Shown: positions 3,753-21,034 of the stretch, one piece after another | Position numbering within the stretch: the stretch's first letter is position 1 | Layout of the letters: every line of letters begins with the position of its first letter | IMG/VR virus record: IMGVR_UViG_3300024054_000217 | Location: 1 to 21,034 of that record | Strand: one strand, 5' to 3' | DNA length: 21,034 nt | Source: a virus | Made by a program: the position numbers and the translations under genes | The notes under the pieces: model-generated | What the model was told of the DNA's origin: nothing | The model's input: only the letters and a program-made list of their open reading frames with translations | Databases searched by the model: none

Positions 3753-6700
3753 ATGGCCGATGACTTTGTTCGTCCCGCGGGGACGGCACTCTGGGAAGAC
3801 AAGGAGCCTCTCCTCGACACACGCCTCGCTTCGGCGCGTCTGGACGAGGTCAAGATCATCGGCAAGAAGGGCGAGAAGATCCTCGTCTGGAAGAACTACC
3901 CGACCGGGGCGAAGCCTGTCTGGATCACGCTGAAGAACCTCGACATCCACAAGCCTGACCTCATGGACCCGCCCCCGGGCACCGAGGACGAGTACCCCGC
4001 CGTCGGCGACCTCGGGGATGGGGACGACGTGGTCCCTTTGCCGGGGCAGGACAAGGTCCCCGAGATGACCGGCTGGGTTCCGAGCGTGAAGCTCAAGAAC
4101 CTCGCCAAGAAGGTCCTCGACCTCGGCCTGGAGCCGCAGAACACGTTCAGCAAGGCCATCGCCGCAGGCGAACCGCTGCCCACCGTCATCCCCGAGCCCG
4201 CGGGTGTCGACCACCTTCCCAAGAAACCCGCCGAGGCTCCGCCTCCGGTCGAGCCTCCTGCCGGCGAGGAGCCGCCCAAGGAGCCCGAGAAGGCTGAGCC
4301 CCCGCCCGAGCAGGCCATGCCTGCCCCGGAGGTCCCCACGCTCGACGACGGGGAGTTCCAGGCCGCCCTGGCCACGAAGGACGCAGAGGCGCTCGGCAAG
4401 CACGCCGGTACGTTCACGTCATCGCAGGCGGACAAGCTCGCGGACTACGTCATCAACAGCGAGAACGGCTTCATGCTCCCTGACACGGGAGTTCTCGCAG
4501 CCAAGGCCCTCGCCAAGCACTTCTACAAGCTTGCGGCGACAACAGAAGATCCTGCGTCGTCCAAACAGAACAAGCACTACGGGGACTCGTGGGAGGCCAA
4601 AGCCGTCGCGCTGGAGAAGGAGCAGGAGAAGCAGAAGCCCAAGCCTGTCGTGAAGGACCCGGTGCCTCCGCCCGAGCCTGAGCCTGCTCCGGAGAACATC
4701 GAGCCGGACCTGGTCTTCAGCTTCAAGATGAAGCCCCCGAAGGACTGGAAGGCACCTGGCTTCGGAACGGCCAAGGTGCAGGCGAATGCGTGGGGGCTGA
4801 AGGACAACGAGTTCGTTCACCCGGGCAATCAAGAGATCTTCAAGATCAACGATCTCGGAAAGAACGAGTACGTCGATCCAAAGACGGGCATCGTCATCGA
4901 CATCTCCACTGGAGCCCCAGCGAAGGGTTCGAAGTCGATCTCCCCCTCGGGGAAGGTTCTGTCTCAGCCTTCCTTCGATGCCCCGCCTTCGGCTGCCCCG
5001 GCTCCTGTGCCTGCACCCTCGAAGGCTCCTCCCGAGGTTGCACCCCCGAAGCCCGAGCCGCCCGAAGCAGTCACTCCGAGCAAGGTCACCCCTGCGGACG
5101 TTCCTCCCCCGACGCCACCGGCGGAGCCCGAACCCGTCAAGACGACGAAGTCGAAGAAGGCCGCGCTCAAGATCAAGCCTCCGGCGGAATTGCCCGCCGC
5201 GAAGGACCTGAAGCTCGTCGGCTCCGGAAACTCCCTTGGCGGGGCCGGGGACAAGACCATCTACGAGGACGACAAGGGCCAGAAGTGGCTGCACAAGGCG
5301 GCCTACCAGAAGGGCGGCTCTGCGGCGAAACCGTACGCAGCCGCCGCTCAGCAGGTCTGGGCGGACATCGCGCGCTTCATCGACTCCGAGCACCTCCCCG
5401 TCGGAGTTCTGGAGGTCAACAAGAAGTTCGGTACGCTTCAGCCGCTCATCGATCTCGATCCCGCACAGCCAAACCTCAAGAATGTGGGGACGGAGACGCT
5501 CAGCGACGAGGACCGCGTTACCATCGCGCGCGAGCACGTGATGGACTGGCTCATGAGCCAGCACGACAGTCACTCGGCGAACTTCGTACGTCGCAAGGAC
5601 GGAAAGATCTTCAGCGTCGACAAGGAGCAAGGCTTCCGGTTCTTCGGATCGGACAAGCTCTCCGTCGACTACAAGCCGAACAGCGATCTCTACGGAGAGA
5701 ACCCGCCCTACTACAACGAGCTGTGGAAGAAGGCGGCCGATGGCAAGTACGACATGGACAAGCTCGCCGACTCCGTGAAGGCGACGATCGAAAAGATCGA
5801 GTCCATGAGCACGGGCGACTACATGAAGAAGCTGCGCCCGTACGTCGAGTCCTTCTACCCGGACAAGCCGGCGGAACAGGCGAAGCTCTTGAAGCAGATC
5901 CGCAAGCGCAAGCTCGACCTGCGCAAGGACTTCGAAGTGTTCCTCACCGGGCTCTACCGGAAGAAGGAAAGCACCGACAAGGGGGCCTACACCCTCGACA
6001 AGGGCTGGGTCTCTTCAGCCGCCGGCCCGAAGGTCGTGAAGAAGAAGAAGACCTTCAAGCTCGACGACGCTGGAAAGGAAAACTCCGCGCTGACGAAGGC
6101 GGGGTCAGGCTGGAACGTGAACCTTCCAGGCTTCGAAGGTGTTGTGCTGCGCCCCTACCACGACCCCACGAACCCGAGTCAGTCCGACGAGAACAAGATC
6201 ACGATCAAGGCTCCGGTGAGCGACTTGAACGCGGTCGAGAAGATCAAGAACTTCATGGACAAGTTGGGCTTGAAGCCTCTGGTCAACCCACTCAGTTCGG
6301 ACAGCTCCCACATCAAGGGCTCCCAGTACGTCATGATGTTCGCCTCGAAGAAGGACTTCGAGGCCGCCGGCATCGAGTACGAAGAGACTGTCGAGCCGCA
6401 GGACATCAGTCCGACGCCGTCGAGCGCGCGCTATCACCCGGACGATTACGAACACAACCCGACGACGAACAACGCGAACGAGCTGAAGCACATGGCTTCG
6501 ACGACGCTCGGGTACGGAGGCAAGCGCTACTCCTCGGACGGTCCTGCCGTCGAGGGTTCGACGAAGAAGATCAAGAGGTACGTCGACTCCTCGGGCGACT
6601 CGTACCACTACGTGACCTTCAAGCTGCGCCCTCACATGTGGAAGGACTTGGCCACCGAAGGGAAGGCTGGCTCGTTCGGCTTCCCGCTCGCGTCCTACGA

Positions 6701-7763
6701 CGCGAAGAACGATTCGTTCACGGAGATCGGAGGCTTCAGCGACTCGGTCACGACGCGTGTGTGGAAGGTGGGAAACAGCGAGGTCCATCTCGCGACGGGC
6801 AAGCAGAAGTACGCGTACATGGGGGGCGTCCACATGAAGATCCGCCCGAAGAAGGGGCAGTCTCATGAGGAGGCGGTGGCTGAGCTTCTCGATGCGATGA
6901 AGCCGGGCCTCTCAAAGCAGGTTCTTCGTGACCCGACGCCCGAGGAGAAGGAGACGCACCGCCTGAGCCAGCTCCTCTGGGCAAGCGCGCCGCAGGTCTC
7001 GGACAACCTCGCCGAAGGCGATCGGAACCCGGCCAAGCTGAAGGAGCTGCTCGCGAAGCACGGCATCTCGGAAAAGGACATCGAGAACACGACGCACGAG
7101 GAGGTCTTCCCTGGCTACGCCACCCACGTGCAGAAGGATCGATGGAAGAAGCTCGCGGGCGGGAAGTTCAAGTTCGGCTTCAACGGGGTCAACTCGATCT
7201 CCTCCGTCATCAACATCCTTCAGCACGGTCTCATGGGCATCGGCGACCGCAACCAGTCGGGCATCGCGAAGTTCGGTGCCTCGTACGAGGCAGACGTCGA
7301 GTCGGGCTCGGCAGACGGGATCCTTCTGCGCCCGGTGACCGACTCGGGAACGAAAAACTCCTTCCAGAACCACCCCTTTGCTGGTGTGGCCCAGGTCATC
7401 GTTCACCCGGGCGAGTACGACCGTCTCGATGCCTACCAGCACAACAGCGACAAGTTCGGGCGCTGCCGGGACGATTCGGGCGACTGGACTGCGCGCAAGA
7501 GCTTCACCGATACGATGGCAGCTCAGCAGAAGAACTACGCCACGGGCGCTGAGACGAGCTTCCGGAAGGGCATCCGCCCGGAGCGCATCCTGCGTGTCTG
7601 CGTCTCGAACGAGAGCCAGCGCAAGGACGCCATCAAGCAGGCGAAGGGCGCGGGGCTTCAGGAGGTCAACGGTGTCCCCATCGAAGACTTCATCGTCGTC
7701 GAAACGAGCTGCAAGGACGCGTGGGAGAAGTATGTGAAGCCCGTCGTCGAGGAAGACAAGTGA
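3753..7763 (+). CDS. Giant multidomain protein with kinase-like core and ART-like C-terminus
   Basis: A 1336-residue protein, the largest in the window. Three Pro/Glu-rich linkers (about residues 147-198, 295-320 and 409-464) separate small N-terminal modules from a catalytic region. From about 480 a Gly-rich loop (GSGNSLGGAGDKTIY) and a WLHKAAYQKG lysine strand precede MDWLMSQHDSHSANF (Asp605, Asn610) and FSVDKEQGF (Asp623): the order D..N..D matches the catalytic loop and metal-binding Asp of HipA and PI3/PI4-kinase-like proteins. Residues 1140-1336 (GVNSISSVINILQHGLMGIGDRNQSGI, Arg1166; GAETSFRKGI, Glu1267; then GVPIEDFIVV) resemble ADP-ribosyltransferase-type domains of the 'S..SIL..GL' kind; this is the weaker call. 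There is no signal peptide or membrane segment. A GAGG at 3744-3747 lies five bases before the ATG. The frame is intact. Possible roles are a virion-carried effector, a toxin or a structural protein; the kinase-like part is moderately sure. Confidence 0.7.
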   Translation: MADDFVRPAGTALWEDKEPLLDTRLASARLDEVKIIGKKGEKILVWKNYPTGAKPVWITLKNLDIHKPDLMDPPPGTEDEYPAVGDLGDGDDVVPLPGQDKVPEMTGWVPSVKLKNLAKKVLDLGLEPQNTFSKAIAAGEPLPTVIPEPAGVDHLPKKPAEAPPPVEPPAGEEPPKEPEKAEPPPEQAMPAPEVPTLDDGEFQAALATKDAEALGKHAGTFTSSQADKLADYVINSENGFMLPDTGVLAAKALAKHFYKLAATTEDPASSKQNKHYGDSWEAKAVALEKEQEKQKPKPVVKDPVPPPEPEPAPENIEPDLVFSFKMKPPKDWKAPGFGTAKVQANAWGLKDNEFVHPGNQEIFKINDLGKNEYVDPKTGIVIDISTGAPAKGSKSISPSGKVLSQPSFDAPPSAAPAPVPAPSKAPPEVAPPKPEPPEAVTPSKVTPADVPPPTPPAEPEPVKTTKSKKAALKIKPPAELPAAKDLKLVGSGNSLGGAGDKTIYEDDKGQKWLHKAAYQKGGSAAKPYAAAAQQVWADIARFIDSEHLPVGVLEVNKKFGTLQPLIDLDPAQPNLKNVGTETLSDEDRVTIAREHVMDWLMSQHDSHSANFVRRKDGKIFSVDKEQGFRFFGSDKLSVDYKPNSDLYGENPPYYNELWKKAADGKYDMDKLADSVKATIEKIESMSTGDYMKKLRPYVESFYPDKPAEQAKLLKQIRKRKLDLRKDFEVFLTGLYRKKESTDKGAYTLDKGWVSSAAGPKVVKKKKTFKLDDAGKENSALTKAGSGWNVNLPGFEGVVLRPYHDPTNPSQSDENKITIKAPVSDLNAVEKIKNFMDKLGLKPLVNPLSSDSSHIKGSQYVMMFASKKDFEAAGIEYEETVEPQDISPTPSSARYHPDDYEHNPTTNNANELKHMASTTLGYGGKRYSSDGPAVEGSTKKIKRYVDSSGDSYHYVTFKLRPHMWKDLATEGKAGSFGFPLASYDAKNDSFTEIGGFSDSVTTRVWKVGNSEVHLATGKQKYAYMGGVHMKIRPKKGQSHEEAVAELLDAMKPGLSKQVLRDPTPEEKETHRLSQLLWASAPQVSDNLAEGDRNPAKLKELLAKHGISEKDIENTTHEEVFPGYATHVQKDRWKKLAGGKFKFGFNGVNSISSVINILQHGLMGIGDRNQSGIAKFGASYEADVESGSADGILLRPVTDSGTKNSFQNHPFAGVAQVIVHPGEYDRLDAYQHNSDKFGRCRDDSGDWTARKSFTDTMAAQQKNYATGAETSFRKGIRPERILRVCVSNESQRKDAIKQAKGAGLQEVNGVPIEDFIVVETSCKDAWEKYVKPVVEEDK

Positions 7764-8254: not shown

Positions 8255-9142
8255 ATGATCAGAGAAAGTCAGAAGAAGGTCGTGGAGGACGTCGGTGACG
8301 GGACCTACCGCGAGGTGACCATCAAGCTGAACCAGCACTATCACGACAACACGAAGAAGCTGGTCAAGACCGAGGAGATCTCCCGAACACCGGGACGTCT
8401 CTTCCGAGTGGCGAAGCCCGGCGAGAAGGCCGACACGCAGATCATGTGCGCGAAGACGTTCTCCGTTCTCTCCCTCGTTCAGGTCGAGGAGAAGACGGCT
8501 GCTACGCCCGCGCCTGCGGCCGAGAAGCCGGCGAAGCCCGAGAAGAAGGCCGAGGCCCCTGCGCCGAAGAAGGCGAAGGAGAAGCCCGCCACGAAGACCA
8601 AGCCGGAGGAATCCGGAACCACGGCAGAGGCACTGGCGCCCGAGCCGGCCAAAGTCGACACCCCCTCCGAGGAGGAATCGACGGACGAAGGAACGAACGA
8701 GGACGACATGAGCACGAAGAAGGCGAAGGCGAAGAAGACCACGGCGAAGAAGGCGGCTCCGAAGAAGGCGGCCGCGAAGAAGGCGGCGGCTCCCAAGGAG
8801 CCGAAGGCCAAGAAGGCCAAGGCTGCGGCGAAGAAGTCCGTCCCGCCCAAGGCTGCGAAGGACGCCCCGACCACGGGTCAGTCCGGACCGCCCGTCGACT
8901 TCTCCAAGAAGTCCTTGAACCCGAAGGAGGCGAAGGTCCTCGGGGCGCTGAACCACGGCTCGGGTCCGAGGTCGATCGCGGAGATCGCCGAGATCTGGAA
9001 GAGCCAGGGTCTCGCCAAGGCCAACTCGCACGTTCGCAACTCGCTGCGGCGCCTCGTTCGTGGCGGGCTGGTCGAGCAGGTCGAACGCGGCGTCTACAAG
9101 CTCACGGCCAAGGGCAAGAAGCACGAGGCGTCCGCTTCGTGA
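8255..9142 (+). CDS. Histone H1-like Lys/Ala-rich protein with winged-helix domain
   Basis: A 295-residue protein in three parts. Residues 1-77 form a small folded N-terminal domain (VGDGTYREVTIKLNQHY). Residues about 80-215 are low complexity: Pro/Glu/Lys first, then runs such as KKAAPKKAAAKKAAAPKEPK typical of eukaryotic and bacterial H1-like tails that bind DNA without sequence preference. Residues about 222-286 (NPKEAKVLGALNHGSGP, IAEIAEIWKSQGLAKANSHVRN, LRRLVRGGLVEQVERGVYKLT) have the helix-helix-helix-wing pattern of a winged-helix DNA-binding domain. It starts after AAGGAG and overlaps the polymerase GTG by four bases. A role in compacting or organising DNA near the polymerase, or as a regulator, is inferred. 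An in-frame ATG at 8708 opens exactly at the basic part and could give a short form. Confidence 0.7.
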   Translation: MIRESQKKVVEDVGDGTYREVTIKLNQHYHDNTKKLVKTEEISRTPGRLFRVAKPGEKADTQIMCAKTFSVLSLVQVEEKTAATPAPAAEKPAKPEKKAEAPAPKKAKEKPATKTKPEESGTTAEALAPEPAKVDTPSEEESTDEGTNEDDMSTKKAKAKKTTAKKAAPKKAAAKKAAAPKEPKAKKAKAAAKKSVPPKAAKDAPTTGQSGPPVDFSKKSLNPKEAKVLGALNHGSGPRSIAEIAEIWKSQGLAKANSHVRNSLRRLVRGGLVEQVERGVYKLTAKGKKHEASAS

Positions 9143-10884
9143 TCGAGTACGAGATCGTCCGCTCCGCGGACCGTCTCGGGCACATCGCGAACGAGGTCAG
9201 CAATGCGGGGGTCGTGGGTCTCGACATCGAGACCACGGCCCTCAAGCCTCATCACGGTGAGATCCGCCTTCTCCAGCTCAACACGGGCGCGGGGAAGTAC
9301 GTCGTCGACCTCTTCGAGACCAAGACCATGGGTCCGTTGGTCGAAGCGCTCGGTGGCGACGCCATCAAAGTGATCCACACCGCTGCGTTCGAGCAGACGT
9401 GGTTCTCAGCGAAGCACGACCTTCGTCTGTGGCCACTGTTCGACACGCACCGTGCGTCGGAGATTCTTCACTCCGGAAAGAACTACGGACACAACCTCTA
9501 CGATCTCTACAACCGGGAGCTGAAGATCGCTCCCGAGGCCCCGGACATGGGCGGCACCGACTGGAGCGGGGCGCTCACGAAGGAGCACTACGACTACGCG
9601 GCGGAGGACATCATGCACCTCCCGAAGCTCCGCGAGTCCATCAAGCCCAAGCTCGCGAAGGCCGAGCTGAACAAGATCGCGGCCATCGAGTTCGGCGCTG
9701 TCATCGGTGAAGCAGCGTTCCGCAACGCTGGCTTCCGACTCGACAAGGGTCGGTGGCTCGAACTGGCGGAGAAGAATCAGAAGGACCTGAAGGAGCTGAG
9801 CGAGAAGCTCGCGAAGATGCTCCCGCACCCGAAGGGGCAGCTCGGTCTTCCCGGTCTCGAACCCGGGTTCAACTTCAACAGCCCTGACCAGATCAAGGCT
9901 AGTTTCGCGCGCCTCGGGATCGACGTCGACAGCACGGACAAGAACGTCCTTGGGATGCTCTCGGGAGAGCACGAAGCCGTCAAGGTCTACCTCGATTGGA
10001 AGAAGATCAGGAAGTACCTCGACTCGTTCGGACCGGACTACCTGGAGAATATCGACCCGATCACGGGTCGTATCCACTGCGACTACTGGCCCTTCACCGG
10101 GGCCGGACGCTACGCCTGCTCGAAGCCGAACCTTCAGCAGATCCCTCGCGGCAAAGCCTTCCGCCGCTGCTTCTGTCCGGGACCTGGGAAGGTTCTTGTC
10201 ATTTGCGACTACGGTCAGATCGAGCTGCGCATCGCTGCGGAGATCTCTGGAGACAAGATCCTCCGGAGCATCTATCAGCGCGGAGAAGACGCACACCAGC
10301 GAACCGCCTCCCTCGTCTCCGGTGTGGCCTACGAGGAGGTCACAAAGGCGCAGAGGCAGTCAGCCAAGCCTGTCAACTTCGGGCTCATCTACGGTCTCGG
10401 CGCCGAGAAGCTCGTCATCTACTCGAAGGTCTCCTACGACGTTGACCTGACGCTCGCGGAGGCGAAGCGGTTCATCCAGCGCTACTTCGAGAACTACTCG
10501 GGCGTGCGCGCGTGGCACCAGCGGGTGCTCCGCGATGCCGAGCGGTATCCCATCGCCCGGACGCTCTGGGGCCGGCGTCGGTTTCTCGACCCGGACAAGG
10601 CCCGGAACGAGTTCTTCAACACGCCCATCCAGGGCACCGGAGCCGACGGCCTCAAGAGGTCCCTTCCCATCGTATGGAAACGACTCCTCAAGTACGGCGG
10701 TCGCGCCAAGATGGTCCACATGGTCCACGACGAGATCGTGGTCGAGTGCGATGACGATCCGGAGCTGATTGCGGCGGTGAAGCTCGACCTTCAGGAAGGG
10801 ATGATTGAGGGCATCCAGGACATGCTCCCGCACGTCCCGGTGGAGGCTGAAGCCGGTCACGGAGAGAGCTGGGCGGACAAATAG
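9139..10884 (+). CDS. polA-like: Family A DNA polymerase with 3'-5' exonuclease domain
   Basis: A 581-residue replicative-type DNA polymerase. Exonuclease part: ExoI DIETT (Asp29, Glu31), ExoII HTAAFE (80-85), ExoIII YAAED (Tyr153, Asp157). Polymerase part: motif A DYGQIELR with catalytic Asp357, motif B RQSAKPVNFGLIYG with Arg406, Lys410, Phe414 and Tyr418, and motif C VHDEIVVE with His530, Asp531 and Glu532. No 5'-3' nuclease domain is present, so it is the short phage form that copies the genome and proofreads. The start is GTG at 9139, because the domain begins at once and GTGA overlaps the previous stop; an open frame extends further upstream to 8446 but is only read-through of the H1-like gene. 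Odd: the Asn of the ExoII motif is Thr81 and its Asp is Glu85. Phe414 at the O-helix position is as in E. coli Pol I. Confidence 0.93.
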   Translation: MIEYEIVRSADRLGHIANEVSNAGVVGLDIETTALKPHHGEIRLLQLNTGAGKYVVDLFETKTMGPLVEALGGDAIKVIHTAAFEQTWFSAKHDLRLWPLFDTHRASEILHSGKNYGHNLYDLYNRELKIAPEAPDMGGTDWSGALTKEHYDYAAEDIMHLPKLRESIKPKLAKAELNKIAAIEFGAVIGEAAFRNAGFRLDKGRWLELAEKNQKDLKELSEKLAKMLPHPKGQLGLPGLEPGFNFNSPDQIKASFARLGIDVDSTDKNVLGMLSGEHEAVKVYLDWKKIRKYLDSFGPDYLENIDPITGRIHCDYWPFTGAGRYACSKPNLQQIPRGKAFRRCFCPGPGKVLVICDYGQIELRIAAEISGDKILRSIYQRGEDAHQRTASLVSGVAYEEVTKAQRQSAKPVNFGLIYGLGAEKLVIYSKVSYDVDLTLAEAKRFIQRYFENYSGVRAWHQRVLRDAERYPIARTLWGRRRFLDPDKARNEFFNTPIQGTGADGLKRSLPIVWKRLLKYGGRAKMVHMVHDEIVVECDDDPELIAAVKLDLQEGMIEGIQDMLPHVPVEAEAGHGESWADK

Positions 10885-14430: not shown

Positions 14431-16224
14431 ATGGGTTTCATCTCGAATGTCGTGAACCGGATCCGTTCCGCATGGACGCGGGACAAGGAGCAGGTTCCCC
14501 TTCAGCTCGCCAAGGGAGCCATGGCGGCGGGCTTTCCGACGTCTGGCTACGATCTTCTTCAGGCGTACGGCTACGACATCCTCGGGGACTACCTGCGCCT
14601 GGAGCAGGATCTTCTGTCTCGCTTCGTCGACTACGAAGAGATGGATGACTACCCCGAGATCAACGCAGCCATCGACATCTTCGCGGACGACGCAACGCAG
14701 CCCGACACGCAGATCAACCGAACTGTCTGGGTGACTTCCCCGGACAAGAACATCGAGCAGATCGGGAACCGCCTCTTCCAGAAGCAGCTCCGCATGGACG
14801 AGGAGATCTGGGAGATCGCTCGCACCGTCGTGAAGTACGGCAACGACTACGAGGAGCTGCTCGTCACGGGCGAAGGTGTCGTGGGCCTAAACTTCATGCC
14901 GCCCCCGACCGTTCGCCGCATCGAAGGTCCGCGTGGAGAGCTGTTTGGCTTCGTGCAGGACTTCCAAGGTCGCTTCGGGTACTCGCCCGAGGAGTTCAAG
15001 CACATCCTCGCGAAGCGCACCGCCGCGCTCCAAGGCGTGGGCCCGGCTCCGGGCTCGAACCTCTCAGGTATGGACGACTCGGTCGCCGCGCTCGAAGACT
15101 GGGAGGTGGTTCACTTCCGCCTTCGCGGGAAGCACCGGCGCTCGGTCTACGGTTACTCGGTGCTCGACGGGGCCCGCTGGATCTTCAAGCGCCTCCTCCT
15201 CCTGGAGGACTCGGCTCTCATCTACCGGTTGCAACGCGCACCGGAGCGGTTCGCGTTCTACATCGACGTCGGTGACCTTCCCCCCGCGGAAGCGCTTGCC
15301 TACGTGAACCGCGTTCGGCAGCAGTACAAGAAGAAGAAGTTCGTCAACCCTTCGACGGGCAACCTCGACCTGAAGTTCGACTCGCTTGCGCAGGACGAAG
15401 ACATCTTCCTCCCGATGCGCCAAGGCCAAGAGGGCACACGCGTGGACGTGCTTGCCGGGCCTGTGTGGCAACACATGGAGGACATCGAGTACTTCCAGAA
15501 CAAGCTCTTCAGCTCGCTCAAGATCCCGAAGGCGTACCTTGCGCAAGACGAGAACACGGCGCGCGCCGTTCTCTCGTCAGAAGACGTTCGGTTCGCTCGC
15601 ACGGTGCTTCGCATCCAGCGGGAGCTTCAGAACGGTCTGAGGAAGATCTTCCGCGTACATCTCGCGGCTCTCGGGTACGATCCGCACAAGCTGGACTACG
15701 AGGTCCACATGACCGTCCCGTCGAGCATCTTCGAGCTGGCTCAGCTCGAAGTCCGGAACGCACGCGCGGACCTGGCTGGGCGGCTTGGCGATTTCTTCCC
15801 GCTCTATTGGATCTACAAGACGGTCTTCAATTGCTCGGACGAGGAGATCGAAGACCTCACCAAGAAACGCGAGGAGCAGGTCAAGAACGATGCGGTGTGG
15901 GCAGCCAAGGCGGAGGCTGAGGCTCAGAAGGCGGCTGCACCACCAGCACCTCCCGCCGCCCCTGGGGGAGCACCTGCTCCGGGAGCCCCTCCGCAAATGC
16001 AGCAGCTCGCCAACGCCCGGACCAACATCAACAGATCTCGCTTCCTTCGCTCCGGCGCAAAGGGTATCTCCGAGCGCGAACTAATGGCTGGGTACCGTCC
16101 TTCGGACAGCGCCCGGCTGGAGGACAAGCTCAACACCCTCTTGAAGCGCGATCGAGCCCTGGCGGCTTCCCTGGGTCAGCTTCAAGATCTCATCCACGGT
16201 CTTTCTCGATCTCAGCGTCGCTGA
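14431..16224 (+). CDS. Portal protein, T4 gp20-like
   Basis: A 597-residue protein that forms the dodecameric ring at one capsid vertex, on which the prohead nucleates and through which the terminase packages DNA. Typical of T4-type portals are YEEMDDYPEINAAIDIFADD at 70-89, the VKYGNDYEELLV strand, the VVHFRLRGKHRRSVYGYSVLDGARWIFKRLLLLEDSALIYR stem region, and EDIEYFQNKLFSSLKIPKAYLAQDE, a conserved C-terminal stretch. The residues near 480-545 are an Ala/Pro/Gly-rich linker (APPAPPAAPGGAPAPGAPP), followed by a helical tail; this extension makes it somewhat longer than T4 gp20 (524 residues, from memory). The start is the ATG at 14431, just before the conserved N-terminal helix. Confidence 0.9.
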   Translation: MGFISNVVNRIRSAWTRDKEQVPLQLAKGAMAAGFPTSGYDLLQAYGYDILGDYLRLEQDLLSRFVDYEEMDDYPEINAAIDIFADDATQPDTQINRTVWVTSPDKNIEQIGNRLFQKQLRMDEEIWEIARTVVKYGNDYEELLVTGEGVVGLNFMPPPTVRRIEGPRGELFGFVQDFQGRFGYSPEEFKHILAKRTAALQGVGPAPGSNLSGMDDSVAALEDWEVVHFRLRGKHRRSVYGYSVLDGARWIFKRLLLLEDSALIYRLQRAPERFAFYIDVGDLPPAEALAYVNRVRQQYKKKKFVNPSTGNLDLKFDSLAQDEDIFLPMRQGQEGTRVDVLAGPVWQHMEDIEYFQNKLFSSLKIPKAYLAQDENTARAVLSSEDVRFARTVLRIQRELQNGLRKIFRVHLAALGYDPHKLDYEVHMTVPSSIFELAQLEVRNARADLAGRLGDFFPLYWIYKTVFNCSDEEIEDLTKKREEQVKNDAVWAAKAEAEAQKAAAPPAPPAAPGGAPAPGAPPQMQQLANARTNINRSRFLRSGAKGISERELMAGYRPSDSARLEDKLNTLLKRDRALAASLGQLQDLIHGLSRSQRR

Positions 16225-16278: not shown

Positions 16279-17226
16279 GTGACAGCCCCTCGATTCATCC
16301 CCGTCCAAGAGATCAGGAAGCTTTCCGAAGGAAGCTTCGAGCACACGATCTCGAAGATCGAGCGCGCCGTGCAGGAGTCCAGCGAGCGCATCTTCGGGAA
16401 GAAGATCGGAGCCCGCGTCGTCGGTACGTTCCCCGAGAACGCTCTGGCCCTCTCCGAAGACGGAGACGTGGCACGCGTCTTCTGGGCCGTGTCGAAGGAC
16501 GGCTCGGTCAAGATCGTGAAGACCGAGTCCGTGAAGATCGCGTCCTACAGCCCCGAGAACGTCGAGGACTTCGCCCGGAAGCAAATCCGGAAGGCGGTCG
16601 CGGCTTGGGAATCCGGGCGCAAGGACGAAGCCGAGCGCCTGATCTCCGAGGTCGCCCCCTACGTCGATGAGCGGCCGCTGCTCTCCGACGCCAAGGTCGT
16701 CGAGGCTCTCACGGTCGAGTTCAAGGCTGCTCGCCCCTGGAGGCAGATCCTCAAGGCCAACCGCCAGCGCTTCGAGTCCGCCGTCGGGGAGCCCGCGATG
16801 ATGAAGATCGCCGCGGAGTCTTCCGGGCCGAAGTACACGGTCATCTACAACGGTTCCATGGAAGAGGCGGAGCGCGCGGGGTACCTCGATCTCGTCCACT
16901 CCGACTTTTCCTACCTCACTTCCCGAGTAACCTCTCTGAGGGATCTCTCTCGCACTTGCTACGAGGGCCTGAGATCTGTGGTAAGGTCCGAAGACCTGAA
17001 GGCGGACGAGACGATCTCCACCTTCATCACCTTCACCGAAGATCTGGTCTCCGATCTGAGCAGGCTGCAAAAGATCGTGAGTGACGCCCCCAAGACCCTC
17101 ACCAAGATCGAATCCCTCGGCCGGTTGTACGACACGATCAACGAGGGACTGCCGGACTACGAGCTGGCAGGCAAGTTCGTCGAGACCATGTCCAAGCAGC
17201 TCCAGGACGCCGCGAAGGCCAAGTAG
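16279..17226 (+). CDS. Putative head-assembly protein of unknown function, 315 residues
   Basis: It starts at GTG 16279 with GGAGG (16268-16272) six bases upstream. The N-terminal part (FIPVQEIRKLSEGSFEHTIS; IGARVVGTFPENALALSEDG) appears as a small alpha/beta domain; the rest is helical (ISTFITFTEDLVSDLSRL; KFVETMSKQLQDAAKAK) and rich in Lys and Glu. It lies between portal and protease genes, where T4-like phages encode prohead core proteins, so a core or internal head role is a reasonable inference. I recognise no specific family. The AGGAG for the next gene overlaps its TAG stop. Confidence 0.65.
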   Translation: MTAPRFIPVQEIRKLSEGSFEHTISKIERAVQESSERIFGKKIGARVVGTFPENALALSEDGDVARVFWAVSKDGSVKIVKTESVKIASYSPENVEDFARKQIRKAVAAWESGRKDEAERLISEVAPYVDERPLLSDAKVVEALTVEFKAARPWRQILKANRQRFESAVGEPAMMKIAAESSGPKYTVIYNGSMEEAERAGYLDLVHSDFSYLTSRVTSLRDLSRTCYEGLRSVVRSEDLKADETISTFITFTEDLVSDLSRLQKIVSDAPKTLTKIESLGRLYDTINEGLPDYELAGKFVETMSKQLQDAAKAK

Positions 17227-17234
17227 GAGAAACC

Positions 17235-18569
17235 ATGAACGCTCTCAGGAACCCCGTCGTGATCTCCTCCCTGGAAGAGGATCTGAAGAAGATCGGTCTC
17301 ACGGGTCTCGTTCGTGAGCAGGACGACTCTGCGGAGGAGCCTGCCCCCGAGGTCGGTGCCGACGGCGGGAATCCGATGGAAGGTGAAGGCGAGGACGAGC
17401 CGAAGGACGCCCAGACCGAAGCCGACGACGGCGAAGAGGGCGACGACAAGGAGAAGGAGCCGATGGAGGCGAAGAGCCTGGTGAAGAACCAAGCTGCGCG
17501 CTTCCTCCGCGCCTACGCTCCCGTCACCCCGAAGCCGGTCGGTGCTCGCGTCGAGAACAAGACCGGCAAGAAGGGCAAGTCCGTCACGGAGTCGCGCACC
17601 GCGCCGAAGGGTCCCGCGAAGCCGTTCAAGAAGCCGATCAAGGAGTCGCGCAGCCAGCGTCTCCACCGCCTCTCCGAAGGCAAGATCTTCGAGAGCGCCA
17701 AGCGGCCGGTGAAGACGGGAGTTTCCAAGATCGACTCCCTCCTCGAAGAGGTCGGAGCGCTCGTCGGGGACATCAACCGGTCCAAGAAGGTCGAGAAGAT
17801 CGAAGGCTTCGCGAACATCGCGGTCATCGCCGAGATGCTTCAGCGCCGCTTCCGCATGATCGGGATGGCCCTCTCCGAGGGCAACATCTACCGCGTCGCG
17901 GACCAGATGAAGAAGCTCTCCGAGCAGGCCGGCGACATGGCGATCGGCATGGACGGGGGCGAGGAGCCGAAGGTCGGCGAGCAGGACGAGCCCCCGCCGG
18001 GAGAGCCGAAGGACGCGATGGCGGCCGAGGCCGACGGCGACGACGCGCAGGTCGACGCGCTCTTCAAGAAGTTCATGGCGAAGCTGCTCGACGCGCTCCA
18101 GCTCTACAACGACGTCACGGGCAAGTCCGAGCAGGACGAAGTCCCGGGTGACGAAGAGGAGCCGGGCGCCGAGGACGGCATGCCGCCCGAGGACGAGGCC
18201 ACCGCGATCGAGCAGGACGACGTTCCGGGCGACGAAGAAGAGCCTCCGGCCGACGACTCCGAGGAGCCGACCGACGAGCAGGACGAGACCGAGCCCGACG
18301 GCGACGAGCCGGAGCAGGGTGAGGAGGAGCCCGAGGAGGAGCCCACGACCGAGGAGGAGGAGACCCCCTACGGTCAGCCCGACGAAGAGGGCGACGAGAC
18401 GACGGCGGATACCGCGACCGAGCAGGTCCGGAAGATCCTCGGTCTCGGCGAAGCTCGCAAGGCCCGCGTCGAGAACGCTCGTGCTCGGCGCGTCGAGGGA
18501 AAAGGCAAGCCGGCCCCCGGTCTGAAGGAGCGGATGGGCAGCAAGAAGAAGAAGGCGAAGAAGAAGTGA
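17235..18569 (+). CDS. Very acidic prohead-core candidate, 444 residues
   Basis: The protein combines a Glu/Asp-rich N-terminus (residues 30-80), a basic central section (about 100-155: KTGKKGKSVTESRTAPKGP), a helical domain (about 160-235), a long acidic stretch of Glu/Asp/Pro (about 245-395) with a repeated EQD-VPGDEEEP unit, and a Lys-rich tail ending in KKKKAKKK. AGGAG (17225-17229) lies five bases before the ATG and overlaps the upstream stop. T4 encodes the acidic core protein gp67 between portal and protease, and this gene lies in the same relative place; similarity of position and charge is the only basis. The acidic part might exclude DNA or fill the prohead and be digested by the protease before packaging. 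Confidence 0.65.
   Translation: MNALRNPVVISSLEEDLKKIGLTGLVREQDDSAEEPAPEVGADGGNPMEGEGEDEPKDAQTEADDGEEGDDKEKEPMEAKSLVKNQAARFLRAYAPVTPKPVGARVENKTGKKGKSVTESRTAPKGPAKPFKKPIKESRSQRLHRLSEGKIFESAKRPVKTGVSKIDSLLEEVGALVGDINRSKKVEKIEGFANIAVIAEMLQRRFRMIGMALSEGNIYRVADQMKKLSEQAGDMAIGMDGGEEPKVGEQDEPPPGEPKDAMAAEADGDDAQVDALFKKFMAKLLDALQLYNDVTGKSEQDEVPGDEEEPGAEDGMPPEDEATAIEQDDVPGDEEEPPADDSEEPTDEQDETEPDGDEPEQGEEEPEEEPTTEEEETPYGQPDEEGDETTADTATEQVRKILGLGEARKARVENARARRVEGKGKPAPGLKERMGSKKKKAKKK
18129..18245 (+). repeat. Duplicated acidic unit in the prohead-core candidate
   Basis: Residues 299-310 (EQDEVPGDEEEP, bases 18129-18164) and 326-337 (EQDDVPGDEEEP, bases 18210-18245) differ at one residue, with synonymous differences in the DNA. 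A degenerate third copy, GEQDEPPPGEP, lies about 50 residues upstream. The pattern points to an internal duplication that has since drifted at third positions. Confidence 0.7.
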
Positions 18570-18754
18570 CCGAAGCCTGGCGAGCGCGCCGCACGGCGTA
18601 CTCATCAGGGCGACGGGAAACGTTCGGGTACACCAAGAAAGAGATCACACCGTTCGCGAGGAAAGTCAGGAAGCGCAGGTCGGAGCTGTTCAAGCCGGAT
18701 GCCTCCCTGAAGTTCACGCCCTACCAAAGCAACTTCCGCTGGCGAGTTCACTGA
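18566..18754 (+). CDS. Small basic protein, 62 residues
   Basis: It begins at GTG 18566, overlapping the stop of the acidic protein (GTGA at 18566-18569), and ends one base before the start of the protease. It is very rich in Arg and Lys (WRARRTAYSSGRR; ARKVRKRRSELFK) and ends in SNFRWRVH. No family is recognised. A strongly basic peptide coupled to a strongly acidic head-core candidate suggests charge pairing or DNA binding in the capsid, by inference. The snug fit between two coupled genes supports a real gene. Confidence 0.6.
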   Translation: MTEAWRARRTAYSSGRRETFGYTKKEITPFARKVRKRRSELFKPDASLKFTPYQSNFRWRVH

Positions 18755-18755
18755 G

Positions 18756-20396
18756 ATGACGAAAGCGCACATGATCGAAGATCGAGGCCCGAAGCCGGGT
18801 CAGCGCCTTCTCACGGATTCGCTTCCGTTGAAGTTGCAGCTCGTCGAGGACGACACCGGAGGCAAGGTCGTCGTTCGAGGGGAGTTTGCCAGGGCGGGCC
18901 TCGCGACGGAGAACAAGCGGGTCTATCCGCGCACGCTCTGGGAGCGTGAGATCTCGAAGCTCGACCGCGCGATGCAGGAGCGTCGCATGTTCGGTGAGCT
19001 GGATCACCCCAACGACGGACGCACGCAGCTCACGAGGGTCTCTCACTTGGTCACGGGCATGAACGTGACCGAGCAGGGGATCGTCCTGGGCGAGGCTGAG
19101 GTTCTCGACACCGCGCGCGGTCGGGACCTGCGGGCCATGCTGAACGCCGGCTGCAAGGTCGGCGTCAGCTCGCGTGGCTACGGATCGACGCGCACGAACG
19201 ACAAGGGCGAAGAAGTGGTCCAGGAGGACTACACCCTCGTCACGTTCGACTTCGTGGCAGAACCCGCGGACAGCACCGCGTACCCCGACGTGTTCAGCGA
19301 GAACAAGGAGACGACCGGCATGGGCACCGAAGCTCAGAAGCAGGAAGACCAGGCGAAGGCGAAGGCTTTCGCTGCGAAGGTGGAGCAGGAGGCTCAGGCT
19401 GGTGGTGTGGGTCGTTCGGACCTCACGACGCAGTTCGAGAACGACATCCTGTCGCGGCTCGGGAAGCTGAACGCCGAAGCGCGTGCGGCCATCCGCAGCC
19501 AGCTCATGGCGGATCCTTCCGTCGGTGCGGCGAAGGAGGCGGTCGAGGGCATCAAGGCTCTCCTCCGGCCTTTCCTCCTCCCCGAGGACGTCGAGGCGGT
19601 CGTCAAGCAGAAGGACGAGGAGATCTCGCGTCTGCACACGGCGCTCAAGGAGCGCGACCTGCGCATCAAGACGCAGGAGGAGCAGATCTCCTCGCTCGGC
19701 TCGATGGCGCGCCAGGCCGGGTACAAGTTCTACCTGGAGCGCCGGCTCGCGGGGAACCCGGACAAGGTCCTCATCGTGAAGACGCTGGGCGACCTCACGC
19801 AGTTCGAGAGCGCCGAGACCTTCAAGTCGAAGGTCGAGGGCATCGTCGCCGACTTCGAGAAGCGTCGCGTCGAGCAGGCTGCCGAGGCGGCCGTCACGCA
19901 GCGCAAGGCCGAAGAGCAGCGCAAGGCTCTCGCGGCCGAGAGCGCGCGCTCGAAGCAGGTGGAGAACTCGCTCCAAGAGCAGGTCTCCAAGCTCACCACG
20001 GCCCTGGAGAAGAGCCTGGAGGCCAACAAGGCTCTGGGCATCCAGCTCTACACCGAGCGCCGGCTCGCCACGCACCCGCGGGGCAAGGAGCTGACGCAGC
20101 TCGTGGAGGGCCGCAAGCCGAAGTCTCAGCAGGAGGTCGAACGCCTCATCGAGGAGAACGCCCTTCCGCCGGAGAACCGCGATGCCGATGAGCTGGAGGC
20201 GGTGCGCTCTCGCGTGAGGAACGCGACGCGTGGCGCCAAGGGCTCGACTCCGAGCATCGAGGAGGAGACTCGCCCGCGTGGCCCGCGCGTGGAGGAGAAC
20301 TACAACGGGCTCGGCATCGACCTCACCACCCTCAAGCAACTCTCTGGGATCAACGGTTCGCCTGCTGGCGGCCAGCGTTCCCTCTCTCGTCGGTGA
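18756..20396 (+). CDS. Prohead protease fused to coiled-coil scaffold
   Basis: A 546-residue protein. Residues about 25-175 form a prohead serine protease of the T4 gp21 (MEROPS S80) type: ATENKRVYPRTLWEREI, the His box GELDHPNDGR (His84), KVGVSSRGYGS with the candidate catalytic Ser138 or Ser139, and FDFVAEPADSTAYPDV. The protease cuts scaffold and capsid proteins during maturation. Residues 189-546 are a long, mostly coiled-coil segment (EEISRLHTALKERDLRIK; EEQRKALAAESARSKQVE) that matches the scaffold role given to separate proteins such as T4 gp22. This half has an internal start of its own at 19320. A repeated module with YxERRLA occurs at 326 and 432. The gene lies directly before the capsid gene, the usual place for protease and scaffold. 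Confidence 0.88.
   Translation: MTKAHMIEDRGPKPGQRLLTDSLPLKLQLVEDDTGGKVVVRGEFARAGLATENKRVYPRTLWEREISKLDRAMQERRMFGELDHPNDGRTQLTRVSHLVTGMNVTEQGIVLGEAEVLDTARGRDLRAMLNAGCKVGVSSRGYGSTRTNDKGEEVVQEDYTLVTFDFVAEPADSTAYPDVFSENKETTGMGTEAQKQEDQAKAKAFAAKVEQEAQAGGVGRSDLTTQFENDILSRLGKLNAEARAAIRSQLMADPSVGAAKEAVEGIKALLRPFLLPEDVEAVVKQKDEEISRLHTALKERDLRIKTQEEQISSLGSMARQAGYKFYLERRLAGNPDKVLIVKTLGDLTQFESAETFKSKVEGIVADFEKRRVEQAAEAAVTQRKAEEQRKALAAESARSKQVENSLQEQVSKLTTALEKSLEANKALGIQLYTERRLATHPRGKELTQLVEGRKPKSQQEVERLIEENALPPENRDADELEAVRSRVRNATRGAKGSTPSIEEETRPRGPRVEENYNGLGIDLTTLKQLSGINGSPAGGQRSLSRR
19305..19310 (+). promoter_or_regulatory. Internal ribosome binding site in the protease-scaffold gene
   Basis: AAGGAG lies nine bases before the in-frame ATG at 19320, exactly at the border between protease and coiled coil. 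The region AAGGAGAC...ATGGG.ACCGAAGCTC is nearly identical to the site before the capsid gene (20442-20470), where it is used for a real start. Confidence 0.6.
19320..20396 (+). CDS. Nested scaffold product from an internal start
   Basis: Starting at Met189 (MGTEAQKQEDQAKAKAF) this gives a 358-residue protein made almost only of helices and coiled coil, in the same frame as the fused gene. Lambda makes its scaffold Nu3 from an internal start in the protease gene C, so the arrangement has precedent. Free scaffold would be needed in large excess over protease, which an internal start provides. Seen: Shine-Dalgarno, spacing and domain border; inferred: that it is used. Confidence 0.55.
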   Translation: MGTEAQKQEDQAKAKAFAAKVEQEAQAGGVGRSDLTTQFENDILSRLGKLNAEARAAIRSQLMADPSVGAAKEAVEGIKALLRPFLLPEDVEAVVKQKDEEISRLHTALKERDLRIKTQEEQISSLGSMARQAGYKFYLERRLAGNPDKVLIVKTLGDLTQFESAETFKSKVEGIVADFEKRRVEQAAEAAVTQRKAEEQRKALAAESARSKQVENSLQEQVSKLTTALEKSLEANKALGIQLYTERRLATHPRGKELTQLVEGRKPKSQQEVERLIEENALPPENRDADELEAVRSRVRNATRGAKGSTPSIEEETRPRGPRVEENYNGLGIDLTTLKQLSGINGSPAGGQRSLSRR

Positions 20397-20440: not shown

Positions 20441-20447
20441 GAAGGAG
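20441..20447 (+). promoter_or_regulatory. Ribosome binding site fixing the capsid start
   Basis: GAAGGAG lies eight bases before the ATG at 20456 but only two bases before the ATG at 20450. Spacing therefore favours 20456, which also makes the protein begin MGTEA like the internal scaffold start. Confidence 0.65.
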
Positions 20448-20455
20448 ACATGAAG

Positions 20456-21034
20456 ATGGGAACCGAAGCTCGGCAGATTCTCAACGAGGACGCCAGGCGC
20501 ACCGCGGCGGACAAGAGCTACGTGGGCGCGCTGGTTCGCAAGTGGAGGGACTTCCTGGAGGGCATGCCCGACAGGACCGACCACGATCGGTACGTTTTGG
20601 GCGTCACGGCCGTTCTCATGGAGAACGAGTCGCAGTACCTCCAGGGCCTCAACGAGGAGACGCGGACGGTCAACGTCGGCTCCTTCACGAAGTTCATCTT
20701 CCCGGTCCTGCGCCGGGTCTTCCCGAACCTCATCGCGAACGAGATCGTCTCCGTTCAGCCGATGACGGCTCCGGTCGGGGCGGTCTTCTTCCTCGACTAC
20801 ATCTACGGGACGACCAAGGGCCCGACCTCGGCGGGCAACGTCTTCCCCCGGGACTTCGACCGCAACTACTCGTCGGAGTTCATCAACGGTGAGCCCCTCG
20901 CGACTGGCGACGGCGTGAACTTCGGCGGCGCCGGTGCCGCGCTCGGGGCGACCCTCGCGTTCAACCCGGTGCGCCCGCTCGACTCGTCGCGCGGCTTCTC
21001 CGTGGTCATCCGCGAGATCAACGCCGCCACGGGT
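20456..21034 (+). CDS. Major capsid protein, T4 gp23-like (partial, runs off the window)
   Basis: 193 residues are visible with no stop. The stretch VFPNLIANEIVSVQPMTAPVGAVFFLDYIYG (residues 88-118) is the hallmark of T4-type capsid proteins, where the N-terminal arm leads into the HK97-fold shell domain. The first about 65 residues are helical and charged and correspond to the segment that T4 gp23 loses by gp21 cleavage; (L/I)-x-E sites occur after Glu56 (LME) and Glu67 (LNE), near the T4 position. It follows protease-scaffold after a 59-base gap with a strong Shine-Dalgarno. Only the N-terminal part is seen, so length and C-terminus are unknown. Confidence 0.9.
   Translation, partial: MGTEARQILNEDARRTAADKSYVGALVRKWRDFLEGMPDRTDHDRYVLGVTAVLMENESQYLQGLNEETRTVNVGSFTKFIFPVLRRVFPNLIANEIVSVQPMTAPVGAVFFLDYIYGTTKGPTSAGNVFPRDFDRNYSSEFINGEPLATGDGVNFGGAGAALGATLAFNPVRPLDSSRGFSVVIREINAATG

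Follow-up and report, generated by a model that had tools for sequence, protein, structure and literature searches.

The open reading frame (ORF) at 18756-20396 of the window, the whole 21,034-nt stretch of viral DNA analysed here, was interpreted as a nested two-product protease-scaffold gene, with a probability of about 0.82. A conserved second start at the boundary between its two parts very probably makes the scaffold alone, translation being predicted from the sequence. The separate protease and scaffold genes of T4 and the nested ones of lambda form a textbook contrast; we judge the gene in the window, on sequence grounds, to be a real nested gene of the kind known from lambda, here with a protease and capsid protein of T4 type. 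The fused layout is that of an uncultured and widespread phage group whose heads are of T4 type. No description of a nested layout on a T4-type protease and capsid was found in the open-access literature (most subscription journals were outside the search). The features referred to below are as follows.

14431-16224, + strand: portal protein, T4 gp20 type (PF07230, E 8.5e-70).
18566-18754, + strand: small ORF of 62 codons, with its stop one base 5′ of the protease start.
18756-20396, + strand: fused prohead protease-scaffold gene, 546 aa (Pfam Peptidase_S77 and phrog_207 matches).
18756-19256, + strand: protease domain, T4 gp21 type, residues 1-167 (AlphaFold2 strands up to 167; 5jbl).
19263-19325, + strand: disordered linker, residues 170-190 (pLDDT <50), differing widely among relatives in both length and sequence.
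19305-19310, + strand: internal Shine-Dalgarno (SD) sequence AAGGAG, duplex -8.5 kcal/mol, matched in 44 of 49 relatives by an SD-like sequence at the equivalent position.
19320-20396, + strand: scaffold proposed to be translated separately, 358 aa, N-terminus MGTEAQK (conserved boundary start; helical model).
20301-20348, + strand: conserved C-terminal peptide YNGLGIDLTTLKQLSG, residues 516-531 (invariant residues and modelled helix).
20456-21034, + strand: major capsid protein, Gp23 type, cut by the window end (PF07068, E 8.2e-14).

The gene order in the window is portal, ORFs of no assigned family, protease-scaffold and Gp23 capsid. The first-pass annotation had described the capsid genes as T4 type, and the PF07230 portal, the S77 protease and the Gp23 major capsid protein agree with that description. 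The helical domain lies between protease and capsid protein, the place that gene 22 takes in T4-type phages. Protease and scaffold had been said to be normally separate genes in T4-type phages, and a separate gene indeed lies at the gene 22 position in 14 annotated T4-type comparators (T4, S-SM1, Vibrio 2.275, DLP6, HTVC008M, Ci1, P-RSM6, LIMEstone1, UPM 2146, FKP10, vB_CECAV_050, OLIVR5, Mosig and K368); in Campylobacter PC14 two small ORFs occupy that position. "Hybrid solution" was thus a fair description of T4-type capsid genes combined with a conserved nested start. Elsewhere in the window, 17235-18569, between portal and protease, encodes a very acidic 444-residue protein whose end is rich in lysine; its location resembles that of T4 core proteins 67/68, and Pfam and PHROG searches assigned it to no family. 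A 1336-residue protein without a Pfam match is encoded 5′ of the head genes (3753-7763), and RuvC (79-633), SSB (630-935), ParB_N (2123-2980) and a family A DNA polymerase with 3′-5′ exonuclease (8446-10884) lie close 5′ of them.

Peptidase_S77 (PF03420) matched residues 38-176 of the fused protein (E 3.7e-15, above the Pfam cut-off), and phrog_207, head maturation protease, matched residues 31-462 (E 6.4e-47). The S49 (lambda C-type) protease domain was also considered, and S77 alone passed the Pfam cut-off. The protease part matched T4 gp21 (5jbl) both by profile (E 2e-17) and as the best fold match (E 2.4e-12, TM 0.77-0.81 on target). The predicted candidate catalytic His and Ser residues, H84, H97, S138 and S139, are invariant in the 49 relatives. 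In an AlphaFold2 model of the full protein, built on a 49-sequence alignment, the last protease strand runs to residue 167, pLDDT is <50 at 170-190 and the first helix begins at 192, placing Met189 at the end of the disordered linker, at the linker/helix boundary. The earlier statement that the ATG lies at the exact end of the protease domain fits this model, as does the statement that the downstream part is nearly all coiled coil: the region 3′ of the linker is almost entirely helix, with two very long helices, and the scaffold part modelled alone is all helix (mean pLDDT 84). Within YNGLGIDLTTLKQLSG, G518, L519, G520, L529, S530 and G531 are invariant in nine relatives and a helix is modelled at 523-529; this peptide is a candidate capsid-binding element.

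Homology of the scaffold domain to T4 gp22 is no more than suggestive. Comparison by hhalign gave E 0.003 and a score of 31, where controls scored 14 to 30, and a fold search with the scaffold part returned no useful matches. As BLAST, HMM, profile-profile and fold comparisons gave at best a colinear, non-significant match, gp22 homology was not adopted, and the region is called a scaffold for its position, its helical structure and the precedents. L077 gave a tblastn match that spanned genes 21 and 22 of Ackermannviridae, but a search with only the scaffold part did not confirm it, and it was set aside. We regard it as unlikely that the internal start is real but makes a core or regulatory protein, the true scaffold being encoded by 16279-17226 or 17235-18569. 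Pfam and phrog searches assigned no function to either ORF, and T4 core proteins 67 and 68 are encoded in the portal-protease interval; however, the gene 22 scaffold lies between the protease and capsid genes in the annotated T4-type phages examined, long coiled coils suit a scaffold, and gp22 proteins were the best non-family matches of the scaffold HMM, albeit below significance.

The proposed internal start was found exactly where the first-pass annotation had placed it, with AAGGAG at 19305-19310 followed after a nine-base spacer by ATG 19320, which is codon 189 and in frame with the ORF. Of nine in-frame ATGs in the ORF, this one has the strongest SD duplex, and the ORF's own start at 18756 has a duplex of -3.0 kcal/mol. 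Codon shuffling placed an in-frame AAGGAG-N5-10-ATG no more than 15 codons from the junction in 0.5% of trials. Could the SD and ATG nevertheless be an unused by-product of the linker amino acids, with Lys-Glu-like pairs written in AAGGAG-like codons in GC-rich genomes? When the window's NKETTG linker was recoded synonymously, about 80% of the versions had an equally strong SD. The AAGGAG-N5-10-ATG pattern, present in five copies on the window + strand, also occurs at non-start places; the two copies at genes 8255 and 20456 probably mark real starts. The recodings make the window alone only modest evidence for the site; it is conservation among relatives that puts the site far beyond chance.

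Scans of IMG/VR with the window protein and with a nine-sequence profile yielded 11 and 80 loci, respectively, and the reduced set comprised 49 fused ORFs (<90% identity, window included) with identities down to ~33%. In an annotated phage collection, the window protein found no full-length match to the fused family and the scaffold part found no match. Although the linker past the last protease motif varies from ~10 to 43 codons, an in-frame start with SD complementarity is present at the junction in 44 of the 49 relatives (41 ATG and 3 GTG; the junction GTG of L024 is marginal). A plausible junction start is absent in the other five, so the internal start is not indispensable. An SD of -7 kcal/mol or lower with an ATG occurred 38 times in 2,009 junction codons versus 14 times in the remaining 23,529 codons of these ORFs, a ~30-fold enrichment over the rest of the ORF (Fisher p 5e-31, a value that ignores relatedness); counted by ORF, 37 of 49 had such a site at the junction, versus 2.2% of other 41-codon windows. 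Both L187 and L188, which come from bacterial genome bins outside the set that defined the pattern, have the internal start (SD -10.2 and -7.1 kcal/mol). Extra coiled coil follows the internal start in the 688-residue ORF of L188 (1896-3959), suggesting that scaffold length varies.

The SD core occurs in two codon phases and encodes KE, RE, EE, VEA, PED, EGV, QEA and others, so neither one amino-acid motif nor a fold-conserved Met explains the site. Family sites are also stronger than synonymously resampled ones (mean -8.3 versus -6.0). Together with the junction enrichment and with a Met that is kept while linker length and composition vary, this makes an unused by-product very unlikely, the least probable of the alternatives considered here. 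On a quick tree (162 columns, several weak forks), both halves contain ORFs with the start, and its absence from a four-member clade and from L086 reads as loss; the internal start thus looks ancestral in the family and lost twice, as far as this tree indicates.

Across the family, mean SD energy is -8.2 kcal/mol at the internal start, -8.9 at the capsid start and -5.1 to -5.6 at the protease start (paired p 2e-6), and the internal-site region is less base-paired than random in-frame sites (0.45 versus 0.40, p 6e-4). A weak protease SD and a strong internal SD form the pattern needed for a low dose of protease and a high dose of scaffold. The upstream 62-codon ORF and the protease start are likely translationally coupled, their layout being typical of coupling; the sequence ahead of the protease start is near-identical in L002 and L003. 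Retained at the junction of a diverse family whose linkers are not, close in strength to the capsid-gene site and apparently ancestral, the internal start proposed in the first-pass annotation is well supported.

The capsid gene of the window has its own SD, AAGGAG at 20442-20447 (-8.8 kcal/mol). The internal start (19305-19343) and the capsid start (20442-20479) are nearly alike: both have AAGGAGAC, then a spacer, then MGTEAQ or MGTEAR, respectively; 15 of the 21 bases after the ATG are identical, and the best among 189 other ATGs has 10. This likeness is also seen in L022 and weakly in L001-L003, is absent in distant relatives, and may reflect a duplication, a gene conversion or an N-terminal motif common to both proteins.

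Free scaffold might instead be released if the full-length protein alone were translated and the protease cut its own linker, an explanation that we consider improbable. T4 gp21 cleaves after L/I-X-E and its own C-terminus is also processed (PMC9026906), LFE-G or IFE-G is found in the linker of some relatives, and the clade without the internal start (L038, L039, L040 and L043) keeps LFE-G in 4 of 4. The window linker, however, has no strict L/I-X-E (the nearest is FSE-N) and many relatives have none; self-cleavage would demand that protease and scaffold be equally abundant until maturation, and it leaves unexplained why an SD and start codon, in differing codon phases, are conserved across 44 of 49 lineages. 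As the motif is absent from most linkers, self-cleavage was rejected as the sole source of scaffold and as a general explanation. The start-less clade may have swapped translational for proteolytic release and would be a natural experiment in this respect. A separate L/I-X-E motif occurs late in the scaffold (LVE-G at window residues 449-451, nt 20100-20108). Of the 49 relatives, 46 have it, and in 35 the next residue is G, A or S; it is a candidate maturation cleavage site, or a mere helix motif.

For the nested two-product gene, a mechanism can be proposed whose two domains, conserved internal start and relative SD strengths are supported by the sequence. Initiation at 18756, with its poor SD and probable coupling to the small ORF, would give a small amount of the 546-residue protease-scaffold, and initiation at 19320, with its strong SD, a large amount of a ~40 kDa scaffold. 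Through the helical tail that both forms have in common, the long form would assemble with the scaffold as a minority subunit and so bring the protease inside the prohead core as it grows. Once the gp23-type shell had closed, the protease would cleave the scaffold and the capsid protein as well as the junction, clearing the interior. Translation of the short product, the abundance and ratio of the products, the scaffold role, co-assembly with protease delivery, and junction cleavage are the steps that we infer. If the mechanism is true, one gene supplies little protease and much scaffold, and the family offers a clear test of the route by which protease reaches the prohead and of what sets its dose. 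For annotation, gene callers record one "prohead protease" and overlook a product that probably ranks with the most abundant proteins of head assembly.

Genes 21 and 22 share a frame in T4 (starts 669 nt apart) and in Ackermannviridae (711-714 nt), so loss of the in-frame stops between them would suffice for fusion, and the old gene 22 start would then have been left as the internal start. The nested layout in a T4-type family suggests that the arrangement of protease and scaffold genes is evolutionarily labile. More tentatively, and with somewhat less than even confidence, we propose a fuller account: genes 21 and 22 merged in a large uncultured T4-capsid lineage, the long product delivers the protease as a scaffold subunit, the internal start sets the ratio, and one sub-lineage lost the start and may self-cleave the linker.

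Compared with T4 genes 21/22, the window gene has the same protease family and fold and the same order, portal-protease-scaffold-capsid; the T4 genes are separate, whereas here one ORF contains an internal scaffold start, and homology of that scaffold to gp22 is no more than suggestive. T4 gene 21 has a different internal in-frame start, near the N-terminus, that gives a truncated protease (annotation; PMC9026906). It is alike in being an in-frame internal start inside the protease gene of a T4-type phage, but the start in the window gene would yield free scaffold. Another architecture is common to L099 (3001-4740), Desulfovibrio phage 7757 and LR756508, in which ~400 residues precede a gp21-type protease. 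The cultured Tenacibaculum phage PTm1 likewise carries a single long ORF immediately 5′ of the capsid gene, annotated as both prohead scaffold and protease, but the fusion is different and its stretch from residue 121 to 263 contains no in-frame ATG; PTm1 was therefore rejected as a cultured model of the nested start. The phylum of its host relies little on SD sequences.

Herpesvirus UL26/UL26.5 also nests protease and scaffold with a common C-terminus, the short form being made from a separate transcript and not from an internal SD site; the protease of HCMV was a weak match in the fold search of the protease part. Similar in layout is lambda C/Nu3, annotated with the scaffold in frame in the 3′ part of the protease gene, an internal start and a shared C-terminus. 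Lambda C is an S49-type peptidase working with a lambda-type capsid, whereas the window gene combines S77 (gp21 fold) with a T4-type capsid. By the same SD metric the Nu3 start scores only -2.7, so a strong SD is not required for internal initiation, and in contrast to this weak site that of the window family is strong.
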